DNA from: Paludibacter jiangxiensis | Lineage (GTDB): Bacteria > Bacteroidota > Bacteroidia > Bacteroidales > Paludibacteraceae | DNA: 44,428 nt | Direction of reading: 5' to 3' | Assembly: GCA_945870155.1 (NCBI GenBank) | Contig: CAMBSB010000026.1 | Location: forward strand, 1-44,428 | Shown: positions 22,012 to 37,427 of the stretch, one piece after another | Layout: each line of letters opens with the position of its first letter | Position numbering within the stretch: position 1 is the stretch's first letter | Translations under genes and position numbers: made by a program | The notes under the pieces: generated by a model | What the model saw: only the letters and a program-made list of their open reading frames with translations | Databases searched by the model: none | Told to the model about the DNA's origin: nothing

Positions 22012-25000
22012 TTAAAACAAATTTGGCTTCCTCTTTTTGGCCTCATCAAGACTTAACAATTCTACTTTCTTTGTTTGCTTTTCTCTAAGCAGTTGATATT
22101 CAGCATTAATTTCGGCAACAAAATTAGTATGTGCTTTTTCGCTCATTAATTGAGCCACAATAAATGTGTTAATTGAAGCATCTTTTACATACACCACAGG
22201 ACCTTTGTAGTTTGGTGCAATTTTAACTGCTGTATGAATTTTCGAAGTTGTTGCACCTCCAATTAATAAAGGAATTCGCAATCCGGCTTTTTCCATTTCA
22301 GCCGCCACATGACTCATTTCTTCGAGCGATGGCGTGATTAAACCACTCAATCCTAAAATATCAACTTTCTCAGCTATAGCTGTTTGTATAATTTTTTCGG
22401 TCGGAACCATAACTCCCAAATCTATCACTTCAAAATTGTTACAAGCCAAAACTACCGCAACAATATTTTTACCAATATCATGTACATCACCTTTAACGGT
22501 TGCTATTAGGAATTTGCCGGCTGATGAACTTTGTCCGGGTACTTTTTGAGCCTCAATTTCAGGTTGAATTATGGCAACCGCTTTTTTCATGGTACGGGCA
22601 GTTTTAACCACTTGTGGTAAAAACATTTTTCCCGCTCCAAACAAATCGCCCACTATATTCATTCCACTCATCAAAGGTTTTTCAATAATTTCGAGTGCTG
22701 TATCATATTGAGTAAGTGCTTCGGCCAAATCCTCTTCCAGATAATCGCTGATACCTTTTATCAGTGCATATTCCAGTCTGCCTTGCAAAGGTCGAGTGCG
22801 CCATTCATCAATTTTTTCAACTTTTTCGCCTGTAGCTATTTGTTTTACTTTTTCAGCCAATTCTATCATCCGCTCAGTAGCATCTTCACGACGGTTAAGC
22901 ACCACATCTTCAACATGTTCCAACAAAGTTGGTTCAATATCCTCATATATTTGCAGCATTCCGGCATTCACTATTCCCATATCCATTCCGGCTTTAATAG
23001 CATAATAAAGAAATACACTATGAATGGCTTCACGCACTACATTATTGCCTCTGAATGAGAAAGATAAGTTACTTACACCTCCGCTTATTTTAGCATAGGG
23101 TAAATTTTCTTTAATCCATTTTGTTGCATTGATAAAATCAACACCATAATTATTATGCTCCTCAATACCGGTAGCTATGGCCAGCACATTGGGGTCAAAA
23201 ATTATATCCTGCGGTGGAAATCCAACTTCATTGACTAATAAATTATAAGCCCGACTACAAATTTGGGTTTTTCGTTCAAAACTATCTGCTTGTCCTTTTT
23301 CGTCAAAAGCCATAACAACAGTTGCAGCTCCGTACGAACGAATTTTTCGGGCTTTCTCCAGAAAATCTTCCTCTCCCTCTTTTAAACTAATAGAGTTGAC
23401 AATGCATTTGCCTTGTAAGCATTTTAGTCCCGCTTCAATTACCTCCCATTTCGAAGAATCAATCATAATGGGAACACGCATTATTTCGGGTTCGGATGCG
23501 ACATAATGCAGGAAAGTAATCATTTCGTCTTTCGACTCCAACATGGCATCATCCATGTTAATGTCAATGATTTGAGCTCCATCTTCTACTTGTTTACGAG
23601 CAATAACAAGTGCTTCTTCGTATTTTTTTTCGTTGATTAATCGTAAAAACATTTTGGAACCCGCAACATTACAACGTTCACCAATATTGACGAATAGGGA
23701 TTTTACCCCGGGCTCATCTAATTGAAGAACCTCACCCCCAACCCCTCTCCTTGAGGAGAGGGGAGCAGAGCCTGCAAGGTTTGAAGCTATAAATGTTGAA
23801 TTAATGTCTATTTTTTCATCATTACTAGTTATATCCATTTCACCACTGTAATCTCTATTATAGAAAAGTGGATCATTGCCTGCAAAGTTGGAAGTATTTG
23901 ATTTATTGGAAGGGAGTGATTCTAATATGTTTTTTATATTAGCAAGAACCTCATTTAGTTTTTTTAGAACATCTTCATTGGAATATCTTATTACATGAAA
24001 ACCTTTGTCCAAAATTACTGAAGTACGATATTCATCAAACTCCTTTTGTTCTTTTTGCAAATGAATGCCACCATCTACTTCTATCACCAAACGTTTATCA
24101 ATACAAATAAAATCTGCAATAAAACCTTCGATTATATGTTGACGTCTTATTTTGAAACCAATTTGATTGTTTCGCAAACTTTGCCACAGAACGTTTTCAG
24201 CCTTTGTGGGTTCTTTTCTCATTTCTTTTGCCTTTTCGTGCAATAAATTCCAATTATACCCATCCGTTGTGAAATTTCGATGATTAGTACCTTCTTGCCA
24301 TTTATCGGCATCATTTAAATGCTCTGCGGCAGTCCCCCTCTCCTCAAGGAGAGGGGTTAGGGGTGAGGTATTTAAACTTTCATTACCACTCAACTCATTC
24401 AGGCGATGGGTTAGGGGTGAGGTGATTTCTAAAATTTCAAGACCACTTAAAACCAAATTATTCGAAGGTATTTTTATTTTTCTTACTTCAGCATTTTCTA
24501 TTAATTTTTGATAAGCATGTATGTGTTCAGGTGTTGTGCCACAACAACCTCCAATAATATTTACCAAATTATCATCAAAATACTCTTTTACTTGTAAGGC
24601 CATCAACTCAGGTGATTCATCATATTCGCCAAACTGATTTGGTAAACCGGCATTAGGATAAGCACTTACAAACCAGGGTGAATAAGTACTTATTTCTTCG
24701 AGATATGGTTTCAGATCTTTTGCACCAAAAGAGCAATTTAAACCTACCGAAAGTAAATTTGCATGACTAATTGAAGCCAAAAACGCCCGTATAGTCTGTC
24801 CCGACAAAGTTCTGCCACTTGTATCGGCTACTGTTGCCGAAAGCATAATTTCTACTCGTTTTCCAAGTTCGCTCATAGCTTCTTCGGCTGCAAAAATTGC
24901 TGCTTTGGCATTGAGCGTATCAAATATTGTTTCAATCAAAAGGGCATCAACTCCACCTTCAATTAAGGCTAAAATCTGTTCTTTATAAGCCACTACTAAA

Positions 25001-25458
25001 TCATCGAAGCTAACCGATCTGAATGCAGGATTATTTACATCGGGCGACATGGATGCCGTCTTGTTGGTTGGTCCTACAGCTCCTGCAACAAATCGTGGTT
25101 TTAATGGATTTTTAGCTGTATATTCATCAGCAGCTTTGCGAGCTAATTTTGCTGCTTCCAAGTTCATTTCGAGCACAAAATCACCCATCCCATAATCCTC
25201 CATCGATATGCGTTGGGCATTGAATGTGTTAGTTTCAATTATATCGGCACCGGCGTACAGATATTTTGAGTGTATATCGTAAATAATTTCAGGCTGAGTA
25301 AGTACAAGTAAGTCATTATTGCCTTTTTGAAGTATCGCGGCGTGGCTAAATCGCATACCGCGATAATCCGATTCAAAAAGATTGTGTTGTTGAATCATAG
25401 TGCCCATAGCACCATCTAAAATTAATATTCTCTTTTCGAGTTCAGTTCTTAAGTTCAT
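22012..25458 (-). CDS. metH: cobalamin-dependent methionine synthase with an inserted DUF559 endonuclease domain
   Basis: MetH transfers a methyl group from methyltetrahydrofolate to homocysteine. Numbering is from TTG 25479; the start is placed at ATG 25458 (Met8) because a promoter -7 box overlaps the TTG. The homocysteine domain (8-340) has zinc ligands C249 and C312-C313 (GGCCGTTP). The pterin domain opens at about 595 ([14 protein letters not shown]), and the cobalamin module carries DVHDIGKN (998-1005) and SGLITPS. Residues 352-584 are foreign: a DUF559 nuclease plus palindromic ends, in the linker between homocysteine and pterin modules. The frame is open throughout. The C-terminus stops at [14 protein letters not shown], so the AdoMet-binding reactivation domain is absent. 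Whether the protein is active with the insert cannot be told from sequence. Confidence 0.93.
23729..23763. repeat. right-end palindrome of the metH element
   Basis: ACCTCACCCCCAACCCC leads into a hairpin with CCCCTCTCC and GGAGAGGGG arms around TTGA (23742-23763). It is the inverted partner of 24334-24370. In the MetH frame it encodes [10 protein letters not shown]. Confidence 0.85.
23932..24258 (-). other. DUF559 (VSR-like PD-(D/E)xK) endonuclease domain inside MetH
   Basis: Residues 408-516 of the fused protein make a full-length DUF559 domain. The N-terminal helix is [20 protein letters not shown], then [16 protein letters not shown] with RRQH at 445-448 and D456, then [10 protein letters not shown] with E467, D469 and H473, and finally [12 protein letters not shown]. 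These residues correspond to the metal-binding core of the VSR-like fold, and none appears damaged, so the nuclease could be active. No separate promoter or start codon is needed, since it is translated as part of MetH; release by proteolysis or internal initiation at Met420 is conceivable but unproven. Confidence 0.85.
24334..24370. repeat. left-end palindrome of the metH element (intact copy)
   Basis: CCCCCTCTCCTCAAGGAGAG continues into GGGGTTAGGGGTGAGGTA. It is a hairpin plus the TTAGGGGTGAGG tail, the inverted match of 23729-23763. In frame it encodes [12 protein letters not shown]. Confidence 0.85.
24408..24426. repeat. eroded outer copy of the left-end repeat
   Basis: GGGTTAGGGGTGAGGTGAT repeats the tail of the intact copy 38 bp away, but its hairpin part (toward 24385) is no longer GC-rich. 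It encodes ITSPLTHRL beside the MetH linker. Confidence 0.65.
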
Positions 25459-25476
25459 CTTGTTTATTTTGAGGTG

Positions 25477-25484
25477 CAAAGATA
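25477..25484 (-). promoter_or_regulatory. metH: metH -7 element
   Basis: TATCTTTG on the minus strand lies 18 bp upstream of the ATG at 25458 and overlaps the TTG at 25479, so the ATG is the usable start. A -33 TTG at normal spacing is not evident. Confidence 0.5.
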
Positions 25485-37326: not shown

Positions 37327-37427
37327 TGCCCCCTAACCCCCTAAAGGGGGAAAAGTGGGATAGAGAAGTTTTGTCTGTTAATTGAAAGATATTGCCAATA
37401 ATTCCCCCTTTAGGGGGTTAGGGGGCA
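37327..37427. mobile_element. MITE-like element with 26-bp perfect terminal inverted repeats
   Basis: TGCCCCCTAACCCCCTAAAG and the following GGGGAA (37327-37352) recur in perfect inverted form at 37402-37427. Each terminal repeat contains its own CCCCC/GGGGG hairpin. The 49-bp interior codes nothing. The element fills the whole gap between the CYTH gene and the following gene and abuts the latter's stop codon (37429-37431). Confidence 0.75.

Follow-up and report, generated by a model that had tools for sequence, protein, structure and literature searches.

An in-frame DUF559 nuclease element with palindromic ends in methionine synthase and other conserved genes of Bacteroidota, probably of the homing type

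The presence of inteins and introns in essential genes is generally attributed to their ability to splice out. A stretch of 44,428 nucleotides from Paludibacter jiangxiensis (contig CAMBSB010000026.1; hereafter the window) raises the question of how a nuclease domain came to lie in the middle of methionine synthase (MetH), and how it is kept there. The MetH open reading frame (ORF) of 1155 residues starts with TTG, and its Pfam matches are S-methyl_trans (residues 19-325), DUF559 (414-519), Pterin_bind (600-838), B12-binding_2 and B12-binding; the activation domain PF02965, listed for Flavobacterium MetH entries, is absent among them. The match to DUF559 (PF04480; E 1.1e-29) scores 103 bits against a curated cut-off of 20.6. 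A preliminary description made from the DNA letters had proposed a complete DUF559 nuclease in frame inside MetH, which this domain order and the empty alleles of relatives confirm; comparison with those alleles moved its limits from residues 352-584 to 353-593. The insert consists of the nuclease on two disordered linkers with inverted palindromic ends outermost. Both arms that had been described were found, together with a degenerate outer arm (Table 1), and the core residues are retained across 168 inserted copies (D456 in 168, E467 in 168, D469 in 166 and H473 in 165). We consider it probable that this is a homing-type, unspliced, in-frame mobile element with ends resembling repetitive extragenic palindromes (REP), residing inside conserved genes.

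Empty alleles define the insertion. The site can be inspected in 23 MetH genes of the same genus, 10 of them filled and 13 empty; the set joins relatives found via MetH with carriers found via DUF559, so these numbers do not estimate a population frequency. In the empty alleles the sequence is SGLE-(about 4)-(about 3)-[ST]LF[VT]NIGERC, the two conserved segments being separated by about 3 residues where the window has 241 codons; the LDEPG predicted for the empty site by the preliminary description was wrong, as the same-genus empty alleles lack it. In the filled gene of G052 the element is cleanly bounded, with GAGATC before ACCTCACCCC and CCTTATTCG after GGGGTGAGGT; the empty gene of G015 reads GAGATAGAGGATTCATCCTTATTCG, and no target duplication is apparent between the two. 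On the MetH tree, which excludes G017 because its contig ends before the insertion site, filled and empty alleles are scattered, with 7 state changes, a count at least as low being reached in 194 of 500 shuffles (mean 7.8). The insertion is thus not common to all relatives, one of the two points on which the preliminary description had hung its mobile-element claim.

The sister hosts G012 and G032 differ little in MetH (synonymous divergence, dS, 0.47; non-synonymous divergence, dN, 0.022), and their inserts belong to two sublineages (dN 0.415) with different palindromes that are read in different frames. Judged from the sequences, this pair points most clearly to elements that were acquired separately at a single site. 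By eye, type II ends lie inside remnants of type I tails in two MetH loci (L088 and L091), indicating that new elements also land in older ends. The palindrome types of MetH change twice on the nuclease tree (shuffled mean 5.6, shuffled minimum also 2), a count in which 4 of 32 rows are untyped and one, P0018, has both types.

The MetH case is one instance of a much larger set across many genera of Bacteroidota. PF04480 matches occur in 37 of 48 same-genus genomes, from which we examined 38 in-frame copies besides that of the window (39 in all) and 40 of the standalone copies. The hosts, identified from flanking motifs by eye or by pattern, are MetH, PurL, LeuRS, ValRS, IleRS (two sites), UvrA, restriction-modification (RM)-like genes, a tetratricopeptide repeat (TPR)-type gene and one unassigned frame. 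A database of about 5.8 billion proteins gave 454 candidates of 635-2021 residues, of which 129 match the MetH insert; 120 proteins among the matches listed contain 129 DUF559 domains, 9 of them having two copies, and their hosts are MetH (three sites), LeuRS (two), ValRS, IleRS, RecG, PurL, RM and others, with 8 unassigned. A contig search gave 553 relatives; among the best 80, 76 loci lie in frames longer than 260 residues and 53 were assigned to known sites, the query set of mostly inserted copies favouring such loci. Further hosts among these 80, with flanks read by eye, are IcmF-like mutase, exonuclease-V-like and helicase-like genes. Their record titles all name Bacteroidota except for one 'Limnohabitans' metagenome-assembled genome (L264), whose contig with a RecG-type insertion is probably a binning contamination. 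Across 395 Bacteroidota genomes the family is found in 222, and 40 of the 150 matches listed lie in frames of at least 600 residues, a criterion of length alone, including 3 in the window's own genome. LeuRS is single-copy and filled in all 6 draft genomes checked, so the fused gene presumably serves the cell.

In any one host gene the occupied site recurs across many species, and to each site belongs, with few exceptions, a nuclease lineage of its own. A FastTree of 208 domains, counted apart from 10 inserted rows without a site label and 40 standalone rows, requires 16 changes of host-site label over 12 labels, where the minimum is 11 and the lowest of 200 shuffles is 98. Within the genus, 8 labels need 7 changes, which is the minimum, whereas the genome label needs 34. 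The exceptions are MetH sites B and C, which are intermixed, one MetH_A clade containing the TPR hosts, another containing two LeuRS copies, and the UvrA copies, placed beside IleRS1 with weak support; these mixed clades would represent occasional jumps to new genes. The preliminary description had explained the tolerance of the insert by its landing in a flexible linker. The strong site specificity, with one nuclease lineage per site, points to homing and not to a chance landing there.

Filled and empty alleles, patchy presence and lineages tied to single sites are features of homing elements. Combined with the in-frame insertion, the recurrent sites and the co-variation of palindromes and nucleases described below, they argue for a homing-type element that is probably selfish. 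Because the unit is open in the host frame, translation would yield host enzyme and nuclease in a single polypeptide. Within each lineage the nuclease probably cleaves, at one conserved position, empty alleles of the gene that hosts it, and repair from a filled copy arriving by gene transfer would then install the element. Rare jumps may have founded new site families, namely MetH site A with the TPR gene, MetH sites B and C, and the related PurL/IleRS/UvrA group. Pairs of palindromes that lack the nuclease resemble non-autonomous derivatives, and the palindromes themselves may serve as ends when the element jumps elsewhere, or may be REP-like passengers.

The two arms in the window have the ends ACCTCACCCC and GGGGTGAGGT around a perfect hairpin, CCCCTCTCCT-nn-AGGAGAGGGG. 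With 104 positions picked at random in the same loci as control, the best inverted repeat lies above the control's 95th percentile in 36 of 38 in-frame insertions and 28 of 40 standalone copies of the genus, so that DUF559 domains elsewhere do coincide with palindromes; this coincidence and the empty alleles support the earlier proposal of a nuclease-bearing mobile element in essential genes, for which homing is the likely route. In a wider set the repeat is above control in 49 of 78 copies. With up to 2 mismatches, the hairpin core of the window occurs at 30 places in its genome (control pattern 0). The pattern CCCCNAACCCC-N6-GGGG has 229 copies there against 0 for the control, and 44 against 11 in G013; over 48 genomes its count follows the number of DUF559 matches (Spearman 0.615), although G047 has no copies despite 3 matches. 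Arm sequences vary by nuclease lineage. Nuclease identity correlates with arm similarity over the 64 copies with a clear repeat (r 0.56; 14 of 78 dropped), in pairs that share neither genome nor host site, standalone copies included (r 0.43), and for inserted copies in different hosts (r 0.56), each time with 0 of 1000 permutations as high in a permutation that ignores shared ancestry.

These palindromes could alternatively mean that the element transposes site-specifically by its ends in the manner of REP and the REP-associated tyrosine transposases (RAYT), the nuclease acting on hairpins and inserting at preferred sites with no homing into alleles. The arms co-vary with the nuclease, the palindromes are abundant in step with DUF559, pairs without nuclease lie in frame in LeuRS, and standalone DUF559 genes also stand between palindromes, all as this account would have it. 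However, one nuclease lineage per site is what homing predicts, and RecG insertions are maintained at a single site although no inverted repeat is detected around them. The absence of an apparent target duplication at MetH also speaks against transposition, though the REP type need not leave one. We regard this alternative as possible but rather unlikely.

PurL allows gain, loss and transfer to be compared in one gene. The site is visible in 42 same-genus genes and occupied in 8 of these. Mapped on the host tree, the state takes 8 changes (shuffled mean 7.5; the masked site of G042 left out), or 15 losses if the element was gained only once. All 8 filled genes read DMRLTF before the element, as do none of the 34 empty ones, which have F[VIS]FEQ instead; in the DNA, 6 of 8 filled flanks share AGATTGACNTTT and two read AGACTTAC. 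Insert dS is lower than host dS in 26 of 28 pairs and insert dN is higher in 22 of 28. With dN/dS of 0.06-0.28, the PurL nuclease is under purifying selection. In approximately unbiased (AU) tests the insert data reject the host topology (p 0.024) and the host data reject the insert topology (p 2e-5).

Old insertions inherited vertically with many losses, the domain now being an ordinary and perhaps useful part of the enzyme, would account for the purifying selection and for the partial agreement of the PurL insert and host trees. For PurL, however, it would need 15 losses, with no scar in any of the 34 empty alleles; sister species carry inserts of different lineages, the PurL topologies reject each other, and unrelated enzymes have no common need for a nuclease. 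We therefore judge this history quite improbable.

Several observations weigh against the homing reading or soften it. The flank shared by filled PurL genes is only about 12 nucleotides, and a long co-conversion tract was sought there and not found. The dS contrast is rough, given the high host dS (0.86-2.5) and 28 pairs drawn from 8 sequences. The main split of the PurL insert tree largely agrees with the host tree, and part of the PurL history may be vertical descent with loss. As for the ends, 2 of the 38 insertions in the genus have weak palindromes or none, and the RecG insertions of other genera have an inverted repeat above control in 0 of 9, showing that palindromes can be absent; G010 (25 palindrome copies) and G045 (20) have no DUF559 match.

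We looked for the fold of the nuclease and for a splicing partner. Among the matches listed, the full-length model resembled structures of MetH, and the nuclease domain was therefore folded separately; its predicted structure has a Vsr/EDxHD-type fold with detectable sequence kinship, making it likely a nuclease related to Vsr and the homing endonuclease I-Bth0305I. No intein (Hint) domain occurs among the Pfam matches of the window MetH at E 0.001, and no Rfam family of group I or II introns up to E 1 over 23400-24700. Over 2850 codons of linker the host frame contains 0 stops, whereas each of the five remaining frames contains 89-199, in copies chosen in open frames; selection thus probably keeps only stop-free, in-frame versions. 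That the insert is removed before or after translation, by an intein-like, intron-like or other route that yields the host protein without it, is highly improbable given these results and a frame open through linkers and palindromes alike, even though conserved sites in conserved genes and a homing-type nuclease are typical of inteins and of group I introns (for the latter also PMC3943268).

Table 1. Features of the MetH locus in the window
Feature	Position	Strand	Remark
MetH frame hosting the element	22012..25479	-	homocysteine, pterin and B12-binding modules
In-frame insert, residues 353-593	23701..24423	-	measured against empty same-genus alleles
DUF559 (PF04480) nuclease core	23923..24240	-	catalytic D456, E467, D469, H473 kept
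5' palindromic end (coding sense)	24335..24369	-	hairpin CCCCTCTCCT/AGGAGAGGGG and tail; read as 12 residues
3' palindromic end (coding sense)	23729..23763	-	inverted copy of the 5' end; read as 12 residues
Outer, degenerate repeat of the 5' palindromic end	24394..24423	-	nested or repeated insertion

Other arrangements were seen beside these. In LeuRS of G044, G047, G049 and G054 (L101, L100, L102, L112), palindrome pairs without nuclease were noticed by eye; they are in frame, span about 35-50 residues and take up to two further sites, and one of them occupies the spot that holds DUF559 in other species. Between two minus-strand ORFs of the window, 37329-37425 contains a nuclease-free inverted pair (CCCCCTAACCCCCTAAAGGGGG and its inverted copy), which appears REPIN-like and of the PurL palindrome type. 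In Rfam, the palindromes of the window insert matched only whalefall-1, below threshold (18.4 bits at 23728-23764 and 16.1 at 24337-24354, against 37), a family that perhaps rests on similar palindromes. One IleRS gene (L083, G057:C52) bears two DUF559 insertions at two different sites, and RM-like genes (L098, L096, L109) contain DUF559 with several in-frame palindrome units. DUF559 also seems to be fused N-terminally in frame to small genes, read from the flanks as IspF, rRNA methyltransferase-like and guanylate kinase genes (candidates L213, L224, L257, L222, L247, L251, L268, L291), the fusion depending on the upstream start. Near the 40 standalone copies, a search for broken host genes found only L137, adjoining RM-like sequence, and L153, which lies about 480 nucleotides from, and on the other strand to, a relative of a gene that hosts an insertion elsewhere (P0065); the remaining rows were DUF559 itself, two-copy IleRS having been masked once per entry. 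Three partial DUF559-like stretches in long frames (L119-L121), with neither inverted repeat nor break in a host gene, were rejected as insertions and left out of the counts.

Rickettsia palindromic elements likewise enter coding genes in frame and are retained in the encoded protein. The element here encodes a nuclease and reuses one site per gene, unlike the short, nuclease-free palindromes of that kind, a distinction judged on content; nuclease-free pairs also exist here. PMC3733652 names the Rickettsia elements and describes, for REP/RAYT and REPtrons, a nuclease gene between inverted palindromes, which are also found many times over without the gene, singly and in pairs, as the palindromes are here. 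In contrast to that account, the nuclease is Vsr-like, the encoded DUF559 protein not being an HUH tyrosine transposase, the hallmark of REP/RAYT; the elements lie in frame in core genes at fixed sites, and the palindromes read have no GTAG tag. Among homing endonuclease elements the nearest fold relative is I-Bth0305I, an EDxHD family enzyme of a phage group I intron (PMC3943268); here no self-splicing partner was detected, the nuclease, whose cutting is presumed, is a domain of the host protein, and the element has palindromic ends. The ShiLan insertion of phage DNA methylases (PMC11855218) is likewise of the homing type, open in the host frame, with no splicing found and thought to be retained. 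However, it hides an HNH nuclease in another frame of a non-essential phage gene in few cases, whereas the present element has DUF559, and no HNH nuclease of the ShiLan type, in the host frame of core bacterial enzymes across a phylum and between palindromic ends. The DUF559 entry 3hrl ('endonuclease-like') is a free-standing chain to which the record assigns no function, whereas most copies studied here lie inside other genes.

No description of in-frame DUF559 insertions was found in the literature searched, which was covered in part by titles and abstract openings, and no known system found combines all these features. We file the element within the homing kind and leave a class of its own possible. 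Such a phylum-wide class without described counterpart, in which a Vsr-like nuclease with co-evolving REP-like palindromes homes into fixed sites of essential genes, stays as an unspliced extra domain, gives rise to palindrome-pair derivatives and sits where inactivating the locus would cost the host the gene itself, is a tentative proposal that may or may not hold.

The nuclease element appears to persist unspliced in tRNA synthetases, PurL and MetH, at recurrent sites and in many genera of one phylum. If this is true, DUF559, a widespread family 'of unknown function' in Pfam, would gain a role as a homing-type nuclease, and the REP-like palindromes of Bacteroidota would be tied to a nuclease that is not of the HUH type. 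It would also explain odd extra domains in annotated core enzymes and map natural, tolerant insertion sites within them.
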